A DNA stretch of 42,565 nucleotides, taken from positions 1 through 42,565 of the forward strand of contig CAKZPB010000093.1 of assembly GCA_937138395.1 (NCBI GenBank), written 5' to 3'. Below are positions 4,993-37,785 of this stretch, piece by piece (the first letter of the stretch is position 1; each line of letters starts with the position of its first letter). Below the pieces are notes generated by a model. That model was not told the DNA's origin, searched no databases, and saw only the letters and a program-made list of their open reading frames with translations. Made by a program: the position numbers and the translations under genes. This DNA comes from an uncultured Pseudomonadota bacterium (GTDB lineage Bacteria > Pseudomonadota > Gammaproteobacteria > Xanthomonadales > Wenzhouxiangellaceae).

Positions 4993-6000
4993 CTACAGGC
5001 CGAAGACGGCATCGGCCAGCGCAATGTAGAGCGGTACGCCAATGACAATAGCGACCGGCGTGCCGACACTGGTCGATGAGCCGATATAAGCCGATGGATT
5101 GGCCGACGGGATCGCCGCGCGCAACGTTGGCGGTCCTGAAATATCCGAACTCGAGCCCGCAATGACCGCAAGAAGAATTACGCCACCCGGACTGAATCCG
5201 GTCAACTCATGGGCAATATACCCAAGGCCAAAGGCCAACAGGCCATGCATCAGCGGCGCAATTGCGCCATACACGATGTACCAGTGTGCGACGCGCTTCA
5301 TCTCGCTCAGGCGAGTCCAGGCTTCCATGCCCATGGTCAACATCAATACCGACAAAAAGCCGCGAAACAGCGGGTCGTAGAAGCTTTCGAATACGCGTTC
5401 GGGGTGGGTCAGCAGGCCCAGCAGCAGGCCCAGCAACAAGGCTGATAATGCAGCGCTCCTAAGGCTGTCGGTGATAATCGATTTGACCTGGACTTTCTCA
5501 CGCTTGCTGCCTTTCTGTTTGGCCAGGTAGATATTGGCCAGCAGGATGGCGATGATCAACGCCGGGATATCCATGAACGGATACAAGGCAGGCACCCAGG
5601 CCTCGTAGAACACGTCCTGTTCTTCCAGCAGGGCCATGGCGACGGCTAGCGTGGATGCGCTGACCGCACCAAACAAACCGGCCGTGGCAATACCGTCCTC
5701 GGTGTTGACGCCGGGCAGTCTTGCCAGGGTCAGGCGGCCGACAATTACAATCGCACAACCCAGGAAGATCGAAATCACGGCAGGCAGAATCATGGCGCTC
5801 AGATCGGCCTCGCGAATGGCCATGCCGCCTTCCAGACCTATCCGCATCAGCAGCATGAATACGCAGAAACGGTAGATTGAATCAGGAATGGTCAACTTGC
5901 TGCCGCAAGCCGCCAGCAGCATACCGCCCATCAGAAACGCCAGTGCCGGCGACTGAAACTGCGTCAACAGGCGGCTGAAAAATTCCAGCGCTAGCTCCAT
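4993..6000 (-). CDS. sbtA: SbtA-type sodium-dependent bicarbonate transporter
   Basis: This 335-residue polytopic membrane protein of the SbtA family (DUF897) has about ten hydrophobic segments in two inverted halves. Family-like stretches are IPDSIYRFCVFMLLMRIGLEGG near residue 38, DGIATAGLFGAVSASTLAVAMA near 100, PFMDIPALI, and the GSSSDISGPPTLRAAIPSANP segment near 285. SbtA imports bicarbonate together with sodium. The gene follows the methyltransferase by only 18 bp, so transporter and photosynthesis-type carrier may share a transcript. No carbon-fixation gene is present in the window; imported bicarbonate could serve anaplerotic carboxylation or a Calvin cycle encoded elsewhere. Confidence 0.88.
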   Translation of the reverse strand: MELALEFFSRLLTQFQSPALAFLMGGMLLAACGSKLTIPDSIYRFCVFMLLMRIGLEGGMAIREADLSAMILPAVISIFLGCAIVIVGRLTLARLPGVNTEDGIATAGLFGAVSASTLAVAMALLEEQDVFYEAWVPALYPFMDIPALIIAILLANIYLAKQKGSKREKVQVKSIITDSLRSAALSALLLGLLLGLLTHPERVFESFYDPLFRGFLSVLMLTMGMEAWTRLSEMKRVAHWYIVYGAIAPLMHGLLAFGLGYIAHELTGFSPGGVILLAVIAGSSSDISGPPTLRAAIPSANPSAYIGSSTSVGTPVAIVIGVPLYIALADAVFGL

Positions 6001-6934: not shown

Positions 6935-8314
6935 TCATGACCCCGATGTGCTGCCGGCCGTCAGCGGTGCTTCTGCATCCGAAGCCTGTTTGGCCATTTG
7001 GCTGGCATTGGCCGCAAACTGGCTCAAGCTGATCCTGTAAAGAATGTAGCCGGCCAGAACCAGCCCGACCGCTTCCAGCACAAAAATGCCAAAGTAGGCG
7101 AATCGAGGGCTCAACAGGCCGCTGTCGATCAACAGGGTGTGCAGCGCGCCGCTGGCGAATGACGACACACCCATGCCCAGCGCCTGGGCCGTGCCCCACA
7201 GGCCCATATACAGGCCGGTGGCGTTCGGAACGGTCATTTCCATCATCAGCGCCAGCGCGCCGACATTGAACATGCCGATGAACAGGCCCATCACCATCAG
7301 GCTCGGCTTGAGCACCGGTTGAATGACCAGCAATGAAGACAGGGCCAGCGTCATGAATGCAATGGCTGCACCGCACACGCCGACAATGACCAGCCGCTTG
7401 CGCGAAACCTTCAACACCGCGCTGAGCACGCCGGTCAGGATCATGCCGATCAAAACGCCACCAGCCCAGAAGCGCTGCAGCGTCGAGGTTTCGGTGATCG
7501 TCATTGAAAAGACTTCTGCGCCGAATACCTCCACGATATTTTCCTGCAGAAAAATCGAGAAGATGGCTAAAAAAATGAACGCAAAGAACGCCCGGGTATG
7601 AGGATTTTGCCGCAGCAGCGTCAGCGCTGAAGCGAGCGGGTTTCCGGGGGGCGCCAGGGCTCGGGCCTTGAGTCTTGCCTCTTCGAGCTGCTCAGGGTTC
7701 ATGCGCCGTTCGATGCCGAGAACGCCCAGCAGGGTGCTACCGATAACAATCAGCGGCGTCAGGTTGTACAGATTCTGCATCGCTTCCGGCGTGAACTCCG
7801 GACGCACGATATTCATGACGACGGTCGCCATGATGGTGCTCATGATCATTACCACCCAGACGACGGAAATCACCATGCCGCGCGTTTCGGGCGTGGTGAC
7901 CTCGGCAATCAGCGAGTGGTAGGTGTCTGCAATGACGGCCATCGACAGGCCAAACAGGGTAAACAACAATATTGCAGCCAGCATCGACAGCGCCGACCCT
8001 TCGCCCATACCCATGGCAATCGTTGGCAGGGCCAGGAACAACAGGCTGGCCATGATGCTGCCCATCAGCAGATACGGCGTGCGCCGATAGCCAAGAATCG
8101 GCATGGTATCGGCAATGCGACCCACAACGACCTGGAATGGCGCCATGAAATAGTGAATCGACAACAATGCCGTGACCACAATCGCGGCGATGCCCAGTTC
8201 AAAGATCGCCACGCGATTGAAGTCAATCGTCAGCAGGGCAAACATCCAGCCCACTGCAACTTTGGGCAGTGCGATCCGGAGCGTCCAGAACATGACACCA
8301 ATGGTTTTGAACAT
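6935..8314 (-). CDS. BCH/PucC-family MFS carrier
   Basis: A 459-residue, roughly 12-helix membrane protein resembling the PucC/BCH2 branch of the major facilitator superfamily (pigment delivery or antenna assembly). Family-like stretches are TIDFNRVAIFELGI near residue 28, APFQVVVGRIADTMPILGYRRTPY near 60, ADTYHSLIAEVTTPETRG near 133 and the GLWGTAQALGMG stretch near 380. It is clearly more divergent than the other two paralogues here (lhaA and pucC) and looks closer to forms I associate with cyanobacteria and some proteobacterial phototrophs. It heads the leftward group with the methyltransferase and sbtAB. A chlorophyll-delivery role is likely from the family; the exact client is not evident. 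Confidence 0.82.
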   Translation of the reverse strand: MFKTIGVMFWTLRIALPKVAVGWMFALLTIDFNRVAIFELGIAAIVVTALLSIHYFMAPFQVVVGRIADTMPILGYRRTPYLLMGSIMASLLFLALPTIAMGMGEGSALSMLAAILLFTLFGLSMAVIADTYHSLIAEVTTPETRGMVISVVWVVMIMSTIMATVVMNIVRPEFTPEAMQNLYNLTPLIVIGSTLLGVLGIERRMNPEQLEEARLKARALAPPGNPLASALTLLRQNPHTRAFFAFIFLAIFSIFLQENIVEVFGAEVFSMTITETSTLQRFWAGGVLIGMILTGVLSAVLKVSRKRLVIVGVCGAAIAFMTLALSSLLVIQPVLKPSLMVMGLFIGMFNVGALALMMEMTVPNATGLYMGLWGTAQALGMGVSSFASGALHTLLIDSGLLSPRFAYFGIFVLEAVGLVLAGYILYRISLSQFAANASQMAKQASDAEAPLTAGSTSGS

Positions 8315-15935: not shown

Positions 15936-15977
15936 ATTGTAGTTTCTCATTTGCGCACCGGAATTGACCTGGATCAA
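15936..15977 (-). promoter_or_regulatory. FNR/FixK-type box with -10 hexamer for bchG, divergent with lhaA
   Basis: TTGACCTGGATCAA (15964-15977) matches the FNR/FixK consensus TTGAY-N4-RTCAA. Reading leftward, a TACAAT hexamer (15941 to 15936) begins exactly 29.5 bp from the palindrome centre. This is the spacing for an activator centred at -41.5, giving a predicted start near 15929 and a leader of about 230 nt before bchG. For rightward lhaA, TATACT at 16006-16011 is a good -10 but lies about 6 bp too far for this geometry, so control of lhaA-puh by the same site is less certain. The regulator is not in the window. Confidence 0.6.
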
Positions 15978-16073
15978 TGCGGCAAACACCGCCGCACTGC
16001 TACTCTATACTCCTTAAAAAGGAATAGGTGGGGAATCGGAATCGAACATCGATTCACCAGCAGCACCGCGACA

Positions 16074-17513
16074 ATGAAATCCAAGCAATCAACCATAGCA
16101 TCGGCATGGACCCGTTTCGGTCCTGAACTGCTGCCGTTCGCCGATGCGGCCAGTGATCAACTGCCGCTGGGCCGATTGTTGCGATTATCCCTGTTCCAGG
16201 TTTCGGTTGGCATGGCCGTCGTGTTGCTGACCGGCACACTGAATCGCGTCATGATCGTCGAGTTGGGCGTATCCGCCTGGCTCATAGCGCTGATGATTTC
16301 TCTGCCGCTCGTGTTTGCCCCACTGCGCGCATTGATCGGTTTTCGCTCTGATGTATACCGCTCCGTGCTTGGCTGGCGCCGCGTACCGTTTATCTGGTTC
16401 GGCACGCTGATGCAGTTTGGCGGCCTGGCCATCATGCCGTTCGCTTTACTGGTGCTGTCCGGCGACGGTCAGGGCCCGGTCTGGATCGGCGTTACCGGCG
16501 CTGCGCTGGCCTTTTTGCTGACCGGTGCCGGCATGCATACTGCACAAACTGCCGGTCTGGCTCTTGCCGGAGACCTGGCACCGGCACAGACCCGCCCACG
16601 GGTCATTGCCCTGCTGTACGTGATGTTGTTGCTTGGCATGGTCTTCAGTGCGCTGATTTTTTCACTGGCACTGGCCAATTTTGACCAGGTGCGACTGATC
16701 CGCGTCATTCAGGGTGCGGCGCTGGCCACGATGATTCTGAACTGTCTCGCGCTGTGGAAACAGGAACCACGTCGACCCGCTGCGAACGAAACCAAGCGCC
16801 AACGGCCCAGTTTCCGTGCGGCCTGGCAGCAACTGGTTCAACAACCGGGTATGCGTCGATTCCTGGTCGTGGTCGGGCTTGGCAGTATCGGGTTCAGCAT
16901 GCAGGACATTCTGCTCGAGCCGTATGGCGCAGAAGTGTTGGGGCTCGACGTGAGTGCCACGACATTTCTGACCGCGTTGCTGGCTGGCGGTGCGTTATGC
17001 GCATTTGCCCTCGCCGCTCGGCGACTCAGTCGTGGTGGCGACGCACATCGACTTGCCGCGCTGGGCTTGATAATCGGCATCGTCGCCTTCACCGGGGTGT
17101 TGCTGGCTGCGCCACTGGACTCCGGGCTGCTGTTCCGAATCGGGACTGCCTTGATCGGGTTTGGTGGTGGCATGTTTGCTGTCAGCACGCTGACGGCCGC
17201 GATGAACATGGCGGGCCAAAGTGATCATGGCCTGTCGCTGGGCGCCTGGGGGGCCGTGCAGGCAACCGCGATTGGTGGCGGTGTTGCGCTGGGCGGCGGA
17301 TTGCGTGATCTGGTCAGTAGCCTGTCCAGTCAGGGCTATCTTGGCGCTACGTTGAGTGGCCCTGCCGTAGCCTACGGTTTTGTTTACCAACTTGAAATTA
17401 TTATATTATTTGTCACACTGGCCATTGCCGGACCATTGGCCAAACCGTGGCGTCGGGAATCCAAACAAGCATCCCCGAACCAATCGTTTGGTCTGGACCA
17501 AATGCCGGGTTGA
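16074..17513 (+). CDS. lhaA: LhaA-type LH1 assembly factor (PucC/BCH family)
   Basis: LhaA helps LH1 assembly and probably delivers bacteriochlorophyll to it. The chosen ATG (MKSKQSTIAS) gives 479 residues; the frame stays open 123 bp further upstream, but the family N-terminus (GPELLPFADAASDQLPLGRLLRLSLFQ) begins soon after this Met. About 12 membrane helices are present. Family stretches include TGTLNRVMIVELGVSAWL, WRRVPFIWFGTL, GAGMHTAQTAGLALAGDL and SLGAWGAVQATAIGGGVALGG. It is a close paralogue of the puc-linked gene at 34964-36415. The position directly before puhA is the classical lhaA-puhABC arrangement, which decides LhaA over PucC. Confidence 0.93.
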   Translation: MKSKQSTIASAWTRFGPELLPFADAASDQLPLGRLLRLSLFQVSVGMAVVLLTGTLNRVMIVELGVSAWLIALMISLPLVFAPLRALIGFRSDVYRSVLGWRRVPFIWFGTLMQFGGLAIMPFALLVLSGDGQGPVWIGVTGAALAFLLTGAGMHTAQTAGLALAGDLAPAQTRPRVIALLYVMLLLGMVFSALIFSLALANFDQVRLIRVIQGAALATMILNCLALWKQEPRRPAANETKRQRPSFRAAWQQLVQQPGMRRFLVVVGLGSIGFSMQDILLEPYGAEVLGLDVSATTFLTALLAGGALCAFALAARRLSRGGDAHRLAALGLIIGIVAFTGVLLAAPLDSGLLFRIGTALIGFGGGMFAVSTLTAAMNMAGQSDHGLSLGAWGAVQATAIGGGVALGGGLRDLVSSLSSQGYLGATLSGPAVAYGFVYQLEIIILFVTLAIAGPLAKPWRRESKQASPNQSFGLDQMPG

Positions 17514-32161: not shown

Positions 32162-32809
32162 TCAACGCACCGTCATGATGCCGTTCATGATGCCGAAATG
32201 GCCCGGGAAGGTACAGACGAACGGGTAGTCACCCGGCTCGCTGGGCGCGGTGAATGAAATGGTGTCCGACTCGCCACCGCCGATCAGGCTCGTATACGCG
32301 ATGGTTTCGGCCCGCATGCTTTCCGGCAGGTAGCCATTGTCGACCGAACCCCCGCTATTCACGACCTGCTGACTGAATGCAACGTAATCACCGTCCGTCG
32401 GCAAGATCACCATGTTGTGACCCATCACGTCAATAGGCAGTTCACCTTCGTGTACCAGGGTCAGCTCGACCTGCTGGCCGGCGTCGACTTCGAATGCGTT
32501 GACCGTGTATTGCATCAGGTCCGTGCTGCCAATCGTGACCTGTGCCGTGCCATCGGCATTGACAGTGACCGGATTTGCGCTGGTATCAGGCTCGGCAGCC
32601 GGCATCTCGTCCATGTCGGATGCCGAGTCGGTCTCAGCCGATTCCGTCTCGACCATGGGCTCGGGCTCGGGTTCGGGCTGTGGATCGGGATCGGTTGTTA
32701 CAGCAACCGGCTCAGCTGCGGGCGCCGATTCGGGCTCGCCACCGCCACAAGCCACCAGCAATACTGCAACCAGCAGCAATGTACAGAAATAATACAAACG
32801 TCGAATCAT
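32162..32809 (-). CDS. Membrane-tethered azurin-like blue copper protein
   Basis: A 215-residue lipoprotein. The signal peptide ends LLLVAVLLVAC (Cys21), followed by a roughly 60-residue Pro/Glu-rich acidic linker, then a cupredoxin domain. Type-1 copper ligands fit azurin: His131 in MGHNMVIL, Cys199 and His204 in FVCTFPGHFG, and Met208. Azurins are periplasmic one-electron carriers. The lipid anchor plus flexible acidic linker recalls auracyanin-like tethered donors. Its location next to photosynthesis genes suggests electron delivery to the PufC hemes; a general respiratory or stress role is the alternative. It has its own upstream region. Confidence 0.88.
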   Translation of the reverse strand: MIRRLYYFCTLLLVAVLLVACGGGEPESAPAAEPVAVTTDPDPQPEPEPEPMVETESAETDSASDMDEMPAAEPDTSANPVTVNADGTAQVTIGSTDLMQYTVNAFEVDAGQQVELTLVHEGELPIDVMGHNMVILPTDGDYVAFSQQVVNSGGSVDNGYLPESMRAETIAYTSLIGGGESDTISFTAPSEPGDYPFVCTFPGHFGIMNGIMTVR

Positions 32810-34963: not shown

Positions 34964-36415
34964 TCAATCTACCGTTGCAGACTCGTTGATCGATGCGCGT
35001 GAGCCAAGTGAACGCTTGCGGTTCTGACCCTGCATCAGCGGGAACGTCGCAATCAGCGTAATGCACAGCAAACTGATCTCAATCGTATACACCGTAAAGT
35101 AACCCATCGCCACCCCAGGCAAGCCCCAGAGCCCGTCCGAACTGCCCCATAGCCAATTGACCAGATCGCGAATGGCGCCACTCATGGCCATGGCGACGCC
35201 GACGGCCGTGGCCTGGACCGCGCCCCAGGCTCCCAGTGCAAGACCTGCCTGTTGCTCGGGCGCGCGATTCATGGTCGAAGTCAGGGTGCCATGCGCAAAC
35301 AGGGCTCCACCGAAGCCAACCAGGAAGTTACCGGCCAGAAACAGCGAAGTCATTTGCGTAGGGGCCGAGATCATGACCAACGCAAAAGCGGGCAATCCGA
35401 TCATGGCCCCATGCTGGGAAATCTGGTACGGATCAGCACCGCGCCCAACCTGACGGGAAGCCCAGCCAAATCCCAGCAAACCACCAAACGCCAGCAAGGC
35501 CGTCAATTGTGTAGTGGACGCAACCGACATCGACAATACCTGGCCACCGAAGGGCTCCAGCAGTACGTCGGCCATGCCAAAGGCCATGGTGCCAATCCCG
35601 ATGATCAGCAGCCGTCGACGGGTGTGGTCACCCTTGCAGAATTCAGCCCATGACTCACTGAAGGTTGGATCCTGCTGCATCTGCACGCGCCCGCGTGGCG
35701 GATCTCGCGTTTCCTGTTTCCACATCGCAATCAGGTTGAATACGATGGTAATCAGCGCCGCGCTTTGGATGACCTGGACCAGGCGACCCGGCGTAAAGTC
35801 CTGCAGTGCTGCACCAAACAGCAGCGCACTGACCATCATGCCCAGCAACAGCATGACATACATCAAGCCGACCACTTTGGCGTGAGATTCCTGCGGCGTC
35901 AGGTCGGTCGCGAGTGCGAGCCCGGCAGTCTGAACGGTATGCAGTCCGGCTCCCACCAGTAGAAACGAAAGCGCCGCCGCAGAATGACCAATCCACGCAG
36001 GCGCCGTGCTGGCTTCGCCCTGTCCCGCCAGCACGAGCAGCGCAAACGGCATGATCGCAAAACCGCCGAATTGCCATAAGGTGCCCTTCCAGATGAACGG
36101 CACGCGACGCCATCCAAGCTCACACCGATGGGTATCGGATTTATGTCCGATCAGCGCCCTGAACGGCGCAAACACCAGAGGTAAAGCCAGCATCAAGCCA
36201 ACCAGCGAAGCCGGCACGTCGAGCTCGACGATCATGACCCGATTCAAGGTGCCGACCAGCAAGACCAGCGCCATGCCGGTGGTCACTTGAAACAGGGACA
36301 GTCGCAGCAAGCGTCGTAACGGCAGGTCCGGCGTTGCTACATCAGCAAACGGCAGATACTTGGGGCCTAGCGAGACCCAGACATTGGTTACTTTCTGTGT
36401 GAACTGACGGATCAC
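34964..36415 (-). CDS. pucC: PucC-type LH2 assembly factor (BCH family)
   Basis: A 483-residue MFS-like protein, close paralogue of LhaA in this window. The N-terminal GPKYLPFADVATPDLPLRRLLRLS, LVGTLNRVMIVELDVPASL, WRRVPFIWKGTL, GAGLHTVQTAGLALATDL and LGAWGAVQATAVGVAMAMSG are shared. PucC is required for LH2 formation in Rhodobacter and related species. The location 250 bp downstream of the pucBA-repeat-gene unit, on the same strand, supports the PucC name. A terminator lies between, so it may have its own promoter. Confidence 0.9.
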   Translation of the reverse strand: MIRQFTQKVTNVWVSLGPKYLPFADVATPDLPLRRLLRLSLFQVTTGMALVLLVGTLNRVMIVELDVPASLVGLMLALPLVFAPFRALIGHKSDTHRCELGWRRVPFIWKGTLWQFGGFAIMPFALLVLAGQGEASTAPAWIGHSAAALSFLLVGAGLHTVQTAGLALATDLTPQESHAKVVGLMYVMLLLGMMVSALLFGAALQDFTPGRLVQVIQSAALITIVFNLIAMWKQETRDPPRGRVQMQQDPTFSESWAEFCKGDHTRRRLLIIGIGTMAFGMADVLLEPFGGQVLSMSVASTTQLTALLAFGGLLGFGWASRQVGRGADPYQISQHGAMIGLPAFALVMISAPTQMTSLFLAGNFLVGFGGALFAHGTLTSTMNRAPEQQAGLALGAWGAVQATAVGVAMAMSGAIRDLVNWLWGSSDGLWGLPGVAMGYFTVYTIEISLLCITLIATFPLMQGQNRKRSLGSRASINESATVD

Positions 36416-36581
36416 TGGTTTACGTCATCGTCTTTGAATTACGGATTGAATCACGAGCCAGCATCCTGATTCCCACAGACCGGATACCAAACGGCAGCGT
36501 ACCGATGCGAACATGGCCTGTCAAAAGCTTGATCTGCATGGCGTCTAAGAACGTCGCAAGGAGGTCACCGAGTCAAAAAAA

Positions 36582-36601
36582 GCGACACCCTGGGGTGTCG
36601 C
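36582..36601 (-). terminator. Rho-independent terminator after the puc-linked repeat gene
   Basis: Eight bp arms (GCGACACC and GGTGTCGC), 4 nt loop, with a 7-A run on the plus strand that becomes a T-run read leftward. It lies about 60 bp after the end of the repeat protein gene and closes the pucBA-repeat-gene transcript, upstream of pucC. Confidence 0.85.
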
Positions 36602-36662
36602 CTATGCACATCTATAGCCATCCGGATTCAGTCATCGCGCCTGAAGGGAATGGATCATTGAA

Positions 36663-37346
36663 TTAGCGGCGCTTACTCAGCACCGGTATACCAAACAATG
36701 ACGAAAAAGGCGCAGGATTTCCTGACATGCGTTCGACCGATGAACCACTGGCCTTTGAACCCCGTCGACCGGAAAGAAGCTTCAGGCCCAGCAACGACGA
36801 CAATGGCGACGGGTTACTGGACATGCGTTCAACTGACGAGCCCTTTGCAATAGAACCACGCTTGCTGGACAGTAGCTTCAAACCGAAAAGCGAAGACAAC
36901 GGCGCCGGATTATTCGACAGCATCTTGAAGCCAAACGACGTGCTCGAATTGAAACCGGCTAACTGAGTCTGAGGTTTGCTGTGGCTCAACAGCGGGATCC
37001 CGAACAAATCGGAAAACGGTGCGGGATCACTGGGCATGAAGTCCGGCAGACTGTCTGCCTCGATTGCGCCGGCCGAGTTCAGGATGACTTCAGCATGACT
37101 GCTCCAGCCATAATCGGCAACCACCGAAACAATCGACCGTCCTCTGGCAAGTGCATTCTTGATAGCGCGTCGGTGGCCTTTCATGCCACCACCGTTATCA
37201 ATCATCGAATCAACTTGTTCAGCTGCATTCGGCGCAGAAGAGTAAATCACGAATTGGTTTCGGATCGGCACTTCAGACCTGGCTAGCGTATCGAGTGCTT
37301 CCCGGGCTGCGTGCTCTGTTTCGTAAATGCGAGTTACTGGGAACAT
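36663..37346 (-). CDS. Puc-linked protein with NPAP-type repeats
   Basis: A 227-residue protein. Residues 1-95 look like an alpha/beta domain (VTRIYETEHAAREALDTLARSEV, IVSVVADYGWSSHAEVILN), loosely resembling small general-stress domains. From about residue 103 the protein is built of four copies of a motif close to NPAPLSSLFGLKLLS (PSDPAPFSDLFGIPLLS, NPAPLSSLFGLKLLS, NPSPLSSLLGLKLLS, NPAPFSSLFGIPVLS). The middle copies repeat with a 32-residue period, joined by basic GSKRG/GSSVERMS linkers. A GAGG site precedes the ATG at 37346. It follows pucA, separated by two hairpins. I recognise no named family. A membrane- or antenna-interacting role in LH2 assembly is an inference. Confidence 0.85.
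   Translation of the reverse strand: MFPVTRIYETEHAAREALDTLARSEVPIRNQFVIYSSAPNAAEQVDSMIDNGGGMKGHRRAIKNALARGRSIVSVVADYGWSSHAEVILNSAGAIEADSLPDFMPSDPAPFSDLFGIPLLSHSKPQTQLAGFNSSTSFGFKMLSNNPAPLSSLFGLKLLSSKRGSIAKGSSVERMSSNPSPLSSLLGLKLLSGRRGSKASGSSVERMSGNPAPFSSLFGIPVLSKRR
36725..36916 (-). repeat. Two 96 bp direct repeats inside the repeat protein gene
   Basis: The DNA segments starting at 36725 and 36821 (both beginning acatgcgttc) are diverged 96 bp copies encoding the 32-residue unit of the puc-linked protein. Many differences are synonymous, so the duplication is old and selected at the protein level. Confidence 0.8.
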
Positions 37347-37369: not shown

Positions 37370-37409
37370 GATGCTATGCAACAGCTGAAAAGGCCGGTTG
37401 CATAGCATC
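37370..37409 (-). repeat. Long hairpin in the pucA-repeat gene spacer
   Basis: Perfect 13 bp arms (GATGCTATGCAAC at 37370-37382 and its complement at 37397-37409) with a 14 nt loop. Together with the neighbouring hairpin it fills the spacer after pucA. No T-run follows, so it is more likely an RNA-decay barrier or attenuator than a strong terminator. Confidence 0.8.
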
Positions 37410-37418
37410 AGAATTAAC

Positions 37419-37439
37419 CGTGTCCGGGGGCCGGACACG
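37419..37439 (-). repeat. GC-rich hairpin 30 bp after pucA
   Basis: Perfect 9 bp arms (CGTGTCCGG and CCGGACACG) with a 3 nt loop, 30 bp beyond the pucA stop. Position and stability resemble the pufA-pufL hairpin and suggest protection of an abundant pucBA message. Confidence 0.8.
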
Positions 37440-37469
37440 AAGCTTGGGTACAACCCTGAAGGCGAATTT

Positions 37470-37613
37470 TCAGCCGCCCCAGAACGCTGCAAACCAAGAC
37501 GTATTGTTCAAAATGGCAAAATGTACGGTGAAGGAAATCAGCGCAACTGCTCCGAGAAACAGTGGCAGTCCTACCGTAGGATTCACAACACACCAAATTC
37601 TTCCCTGATTCAT
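37470..37613 (-). CDS. pucA: LH2 antenna alpha subunit
   Basis: The gene encodes only 47 residues. It starts [15 protein letters not shown], as in LH2 alpha, with ligand His31 in SFTVHFAIL and the C-terminal [16 protein letters not shown] lies 6 bp before the ATG and 10 bp separate it from pucB. At the positions that hydrogen-bond the 3-acetyl groups of B850 (alpha 44 and 45 in Rhodoblastus acidophilus numbering, which aligns directly from Met1) it has Phe44 and Trp45. Tyr44 is thus replaced. The short tail lacks the extra residues after the final WxGG of many homologues. Confidence 0.95.
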
Positions 37614-37623
37614 GCTGGTCTCC

Positions 37624-37785
37624 TTATCCTAGCCACGGCGTGAACATAAACGCCAGTAAGTGAGCAACCAATGACAGCACAAAGAACACGCGTGCGCCAT
37701 CAATTACATGTTTATGGAGCTCTTCAGACTCCTTGATCGTCAAGCCGGTGGGCCAGACGCGATCTGGATCGTCCAGGTCAGCCAT
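37624..37785 (-). CDS. pucB: LH2 antenna beta subunit
   Basis: The 53-residue beta polypeptide carries [17 protein letters not shown], the ligand His42 in [15 protein letters not shown], the His24 near the B800 site and Arg32 (DGARVF), equivalent to the residue that hydrogen-bonds the B800 acetyl. The start at 37785 has an excellent GAGGAGAGGA ribosome-binding region. An upstream extension of the frame to 37866 is unlikely. It is the first gene of the puc unit. Confidence 0.95.

Follow-up and report, generated by a model that had tools for sequence, protein, structure and literature searches.

In the window, that is, the whole stretch of 42,565 nucleotides that was analysed, an open reading frame for a protein of 227 residues (36663-37346, minus strand; coordinates, strand and frame are exact), here called X, lies in a puc unit of the antenna complex LH2 (Table 1). 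The gene stands in the middle, behind pucBA (37470-37785) and ahead of pucC (34964-36415), all on the minus strand. This bears out the earlier note, made from the letters alone, which had placed X third in the puc unit and ending at a terminator; the latter is a terminator-like 10-pair stem with a T tail at 36603-36580. The hairpins between pucA and X folded with a z of -5.7, which none of 200 shuffles reached, and among six relatives that were folded the hairpins after pucA gave z of -2.6 or lower in four and not in the other two. Pfam and NCBIfam models gave no match to X at E up to 1, and Rfam gave none to the window. Besides pucC and a PUCC-family gene at 15951-17513 (plus strand), the window holds a third PUCC-family gene (6935-8314, minus strand), a gene for a plastocyanin-like putative lipoprotein (32162-32809, minus strand) and one of the Na+-dependent bicarbonate transporter family (4993-6000, minus strand).

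Table 1. Features of the puc unit and of the X protein in the window
Feature	Positions	Strand	Basis or remark
pucB, LH2 beta, 53 aa	37624..37785	-	Pfam LHC 1.1e-8
pucA, LH2 alpha, 47 aa	37470..37613	-	Pfam LHC 1.4e-11; stop read from sequence
Terminator-like hairpin directly 3' of pucA	37418..37440	-	Hairpin folding
13-pair hairpin, pucA-X gap	37370..37409	-	Hairpin folding
X, putative belt-type repeat protein, 227 aa	36663..37346	-	ORF and homologues
X N-terminal domain, residues 1-98, predicted ferredoxin-like	37053..37346	-	Model pLDDT mostly 91-98
Unit 1, DPAPFSDLFGIPLLSH	36981..37028	-	23 residues ahead of the registered array
Unit 2, AGFNSSTSFGFKMLSN	36912..36959	-	First of six in 16-residue register
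Unit 3, NPAPLSSLFGLKLLSS	36864..36911	-	In register
Unit 4, diverged, KRGSIAKGSSVERMSS	36816..36863	-	Ser at the bacteriochlorophyll-ligand position of gamma
Unit 5, NPSPLSSLLGLKLLSG	36768..36815	-	In register
Unit 6, diverged, RRGSKASGSSVERMSG	36720..36767	-	In register
Unit 7, NPAPFSSLFGIPVLSK	36672..36719	-	In register
Intrinsic-terminator-like site 3' of X	36580..36603	-	10-pair stem and T tail, about 60 bases past the X stop
pucC-type LH2 assembly factor	34964..36415	-	Pfam PUCC 8.4e-144

The separate N-terminal domain supposed in the earlier note reappears in the fold model, where about 98 residues are confidently predicted as a ferredoxin-like fold and the repeats behind them mostly as coil with low confidence. 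With residues 1-97, Foldseek gave no match at E up to 0.001; in a fold comparison the best Z was 8.4 (2uuv, rmsd 3.2, 89 aligned), with PII and ACT domains near Z 6. The fold matches point only to a common ferredoxin-like arrangement, and we draw no function from them. With an E limit of 0.1, the YflT model (PF11181) matched 8 of 35 relatives, the best of them at 1.1e-5; it did not match the window X, and the 16-residue tail lies outside the YflT domain.

The tail of the window X is built of 16-residue units: a registered run of six, of which two have diverged, and a further one at residue 116. Their cores are centred on residues 116, 139, 155, 171, 187, 203 and 219, of which 171 and 203 belong to the diverged units. 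The repeats noticed earlier are therefore real and more regular than described, and the 32-residue repeat of that description is two 16-residue units, the second of which has diverged to GSSVERM. On the other hand, the proposal that the units are amphipathic was not borne out, the tail being modelled almost only as coil at low confidence. The repeat copies differ mostly at third codon positions, so they are not a recent duplication of DNA; a repeat at the DNA level was also rejected, as no direct repeats were found. Basic residues outnumber acidic ones in the tail by 15 to 5, which fits the expectation for the cytoplasmic face of the membrane.

The same period was found throughout the family, for which we used 84 proteins: 80 from the 77 loci described below, the window X and three from further genomes. 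A tail holds on average 4.1 copies of the core [FLMIVW]Gxxx[LIV], versus 0.6 in shuffles. Spacings between cores are exactly 16 in 139 of 267 cases and 15-17 in 60%, versus 4% in shuffled tails, and the hydrophobic autocorrelation over lags 1-49 exceeds 0.06 at 16, 32 and 48 only. It is evident that the 16-residue period is more than chance. The strict core is absent from 4 of the 84 proteins; the longest in-register run has five or six steps in 46 and at most two in 18, as scored with a matrix for which these units were also the training set and under which the diverged units of the window fall below the threshold. Relative to the central glycine (G0), the consensus is P-6, L/F-5, S-4, S-3, F/L-1, P+2 and L+4, where position -1 is constrained by the core pattern and was recounted with free anchors.

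To find LH2 loci, genome contigs were searched with a pucB alignment alone, which favours pucB like that of the window, and X was sought by profile in the best 80 of the 167 relatives. A homologue of X lies beside puc genes on the same strand in 77 of these 80 loci; in the remaining three the contig breaks off, L060 and L122 stopping inside pucC or at its end and L090 starting 312 bases before pucB. The link to LH2 supposed in the earlier note is strongly supported by this result, and what that note had named as speaking against it, homologues mainly in non-phototrophs or no linkage to puc, is not the pattern of these pucB-selected loci. The neighbourhood is usual and not invariable, with seven multi-antenna genomes without X and a paralogue away from puc (see below). 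The N-terminal domain, the 16-residue tail and the place beside pucBA or pucC, which together define the family as proposed here, were all found for the window X. The gene orders of the 77 loci are BA-X-C (31), BA-C-X (30) and X-BA-C (15), with one locus cut. Among these best 80 loci, the hosts of X include alphaproteobacteria, gammaproteobacteria, Gemmatimonadota and Myxococcota (both represented by bins) and one Anaerolineae bin, whose X nearly equals that of an alphaproteobacterial bin and may be misbinned. Named isolates with X include Salinarimonas rosea, Rhodothalassium salexigens, Aestuariivirga litoralis, Bradyrhizobium BTAi1 and Pseudohaliea rubra. Searches of genome contigs with X as a single protein, of plasmids with two X proteins and pucB, and of viral contigs with the pucB alignment gave no match.

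Unit number varies among X proteins, and 2 of the 80 loci have two or three X genes. An Acetobacteraceae bin carries three in tandem (L114:12074-15092, plus strand), the middle one of which (434 aa) seems to have two N-terminal domains. The X of Wenzhouxiangella (L066:2769-3362, plus strand) groups with that of Gemmatimonadota and the window X with that of Woeseiaceae; this split suggests that the puc unit was acquired separately within one family.

LH2 is a model antenna and has been described as a ring of alpha-beta pairs. In Rps. palustris, a further polypeptide, LH2-gamma (UniProt Q6N9P5; PDB 7ZCU, 7ZDI, 7ZE3, 7ZE8), was found in 2022 and, according to the accessible parts of the report, forms by cryo-EM an extended ribbon near the cytoplasmic side around six of the nine alpha-beta pairs, with six repeats, in each of which a Ser ligates one bacteriochlorophyll; BLASTp was reported to find it in Rhodopseudomonas only (PMC9618040). 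X and gamma share six registered 16-residue units with conserved G0, P+2 and L/I+4, a gene beside puc genes, and a tail without regular secondary structure (by structure in gamma, by model in X). On the other hand, gamma is a chain of 97 residues made only of repeats, whereas X has an N-terminal domain, and gamma has Ser at -1 in every unit, where X mostly has F or L. Because both the ligand Ser and the repeat-only chain are missing, X was not classed as LH2-gamma.

The direct match between the two is weak. A profile of 35 X proteins placed gamma second among 177,635 PDB sequences, behind a ribosomal protein and at an E of only 0.14. With a six-row profile the PDB search gave three chance matches and not gamma, and with the window X alone one match, set aside as chance. 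A firmer bridge came from the BTAi1 family sample (248 genomes, X being tested in the 36 with antenna genes), in which 19 of the 36 have gamma-type matches and all 19 also have an X match. In 18 of them a gamma match follows that of X within 14-107 bases, the nineteenth (G906) lying at a contig edge. We call these genomes Rhodopseudomonas by inference from gamma itself, whose identity ranges from about 60% to 100% (G964). The genes of G964 stand in the order pucB-pucA-pucC-X-gamma, with gamma identical to the PDB letters and the X orthologue directly upstream of it. The X-family profile matches this orthologue over 2-224 of 228 positions (7e-31), and the profile of the N-domain (8.6e-13) and that of the tail (1.7e-15) each find it when used alone. 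Behind its N-terminal domain come a DAAPFSNLIHAPVLL unit, units of gamma type, for instance GPYKSFSGTPLLL, and at the end one of X type, STPFSSWLGLPVLL; the last five cores follow in 16-residue steps and the first steps are 15 and 13. Gamma of Rps. palustris has five steps of 16. Of six gamma-type proteins, all but that of G955, which steps mostly by 13, contain six units spaced by exactly 16 residues. Full shuffles of the six gamma-type proteins never scored as well (0 of 500 each); permutations that keep the period reached the real score in 15, 5, 5, 0 and 2 of 1000 for five of them. These comparisons, above all the orthologue with both unit types, argue for homology of the X repeats with those of LH2-gamma. 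In a tree of the N-terminal domain, with few columns and many forks unresolved, the gamma-bearing genomes supply seven rows, which group together (100/99) within a 38-row BA-C-X clade (99/89), in which the L195 row is so labelled though no pucC was found beside it. The nesting suggests that gamma-type units arose within the wider X family, and gamma looks like a derived offshoot of it. Further tandem paralogues in G972 (L198:2960-3511, plus strand) and G770 (L197:7168-7620, minus strand) have about nine 16-residue units, mostly of gamma type with an X-type unit last, a count that equals the alpha-beta pairs of an LH2 nonamer.

Judged from sequence, X is probably a belt polypeptide of LH2, gamma-type, on the cytoplasmic rim of the ring. 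Its tail, in extended form, would run along the outer rim on the cytoplasmic side, and every 16-residue unit would dock onto a single alpha-beta pair. With six units in register, the array would thus reach over six adjacent pairs, the number that LH2-gamma covers in Rps. palustris, and the ferredoxin-like domain would remain in the cytoplasm. Docking, its place and its stoichiometry we infer by analogy, from homology and from the period shared with gamma. Multivalent contact with LH2, as the earlier note had imagined, here with one unit per subunit, would accordingly be the best reading of the repeats, because the homologous gamma repeats make such contact in a solved structure.

We do not extend bacteriochlorophyll binding from gamma to X, since Ser or Thr at -1 is rare (5 of 190, 7 of 210 and 6 of 270 units with three anchors) and the ligand Ser of gamma is not conserved. 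It is rather doubtful that the belt nevertheless holds additional monomeric bacteriochlorophylls, liganded by Ser at -3 or -4 or, in diverged units, by that at -1; as a special case of the belt, this reading shares part of its probability. It would agree with Ser or Thr at -5 to -2 in 319 of 343 units and with the window X itself, where Ser stands at -1 in the diverged units 4 and 6 only; it has to face a known ligand position that is hydrophobic in nearly all units, and unrelated reasons make Ser frequent in tails of this kind.

Alternatively, X might be a transient assembly factor or template that gathers alpha-beta pairs in number or order at ring closure together with PucC and then leaves mature LH2; gamma would in that case be a later paralogue that remained attached and acquired pigment ligands. 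X adjoins pucC in 61 of the 77 loci (BA-X-C and BA-C-X), the hairpins in the pucA-X gap suggest that X is made in smaller amounts than alpha and beta, and the ligand Ser is absent. Moreover, the extra LH2 band of Rps. palustris is the 10-kDa gamma, and the accessible parts of the report describe only this one and mention no larger band (PMC9618040); in the paper that gives the gamma sequence, gel bands were, from its accessible parts, excised from 10 kDa down and whole complexes also analysed (PMC9897067). We consider this role unlikely, because the one relative of known structure, gamma, is described in the accessible text as a stable subunit (PMC9618040), and two or three X genes in some loci and a varying unit number fit a fixed ruler poorly.

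The belt would also be consistent with the distribution of X among genomes with different numbers of antenna pairs. In the order sample (398 genomes, 11 with antenna genes), X was found in all five genomes with four antenna matches (two pairs) and in none of the six with two (Fisher 0.002), nor in any of the 387 without antenna genes. In the BTAi1 family, 20 of the 25 genomes with more than two antenna matches have X at E up to 0.001, G906 by partial matches only, versus 1 of 11 with two (Fisher 0.0001); X was not found in G774, G818, G844, G865 and G898, which have more than two. The class sample (369 genomes) has nine with an antenna match, of which G673 and G734, with one weak match each, were left out and six besides that of the window were tested. 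G653, with four antenna matches, has X adjoining its second pair, and X was not found in G502 (four matches), G716 (ten) or G421, G503 and G515 (two each). Together, seven multi-antenna genomes of the BTAi1 family and class samples are without X.

In the phylum sample, 23 of 369 genomes match the X profile, that of the window included. Among the other 22, six have four antenna matches and an X match at most about 2.1 kb away from the second pair (four of these loci were read); the window-type tail occurs in one of the six (G1024), and the other five, all of one family, have diverged tails, which the tail profile matches weakly in G1311 (1.7e-4) and G1231 (5.8e-4) and not in G1178, G1202 and G1303. 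The remaining 16, six with two antenna matches and ten with none, were set aside as matches to the N-terminal domain only or to a repeat ORF of G1017. That ORF (L217:2391-4010, plus strand) is long, unrelated and tandemly repeated, in a genome without antenna matches, and the tail profile finds it at 3e-25; by itself, a match to this profile is therefore no proof of X.

The two parts were found together beside puc genes; the only departure seen was a G964 paralogue at 5.23 Mb (L194:4707-5249, plus strand) that lies far from the four antenna pairs and near PRC-barrel and alpha-amylase genes. A second X-like paralogue of G964 away from antenna genes (L202:4077-4691, plus strand) matches by the N-terminal domain. 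Such a paralogue with both parts, and the N-terminal domain alone, which is common to proteins of genomes without antenna genes, would suit a protein that acts elsewhere in the antenna membrane (on membrane shape, on LH2-LH1 contacts or in a stress response through a YflT-like domain), with a merely convergent likeness to gamma. We regard this as quite improbable in view of the puc link of X and of the two unit types mixed in one orthologous protein adjoining gamma.

Thus, linkage to puc, co-occurrence with two antenna pairs, the mixed array of G964, the shared 16-residue period and the coil model of the tail speak for the belt. Against it stand the single 10-kDa extra band in the accessible description of Rps. 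palustris LH2, the weak direct match to gamma and the absent ligand Ser, as well as the multi-antenna genomes without X, the X proteins without a strict core, the one gamma-type protein stepping by 13, the period-keeping permutations that score as well (up to 15 of 1000) and the strong match of the tail profile to an unrelated repeat ORF. On balance we hold that X probably works like LH2-gamma and is homologous to it.

PucE of R. capsulatus is a 14-kDa LH2-associated protein. LH1-gamma of Blastochloris viridis is an extra antenna polypeptide outside the ring, as proposed for X, and is likened here by the description in the accessible parts of its report; unlike X it is part of LH1, where it occurs in 16 separate copies (PMC10214105). 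In the open-licence literature we found no description of the X family, nor of gamma outside Rhodopseudomonas, and papers on such groups mention LH2 or puc without an X-like protein in their accessible parts (PMC12817894, PMC11762602, PMC10576062, PMC12700997, PMC12654162).

Finally, it is conceivable, at slightly less than even chances, that LH2 of many purple bacteria and of phototrophic Gemmatimonadota and Myxococcota has a third, belt subunit from the puc operon, of which Rhodopseudomonas gamma is a late, pigment-binding offshoot, and that the nine-unit belts in certain genomes with gamma would go all the way round the ring. If so, a question left open in the accessible parts of PMC9618040, namely that gamma is long enough for part of the ring only, would become testable across belts of differing unit number. 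If LH2 operons in several phyla carry the parent family of gamma, the descriptions of many LH2 complexes may lack a subunit.
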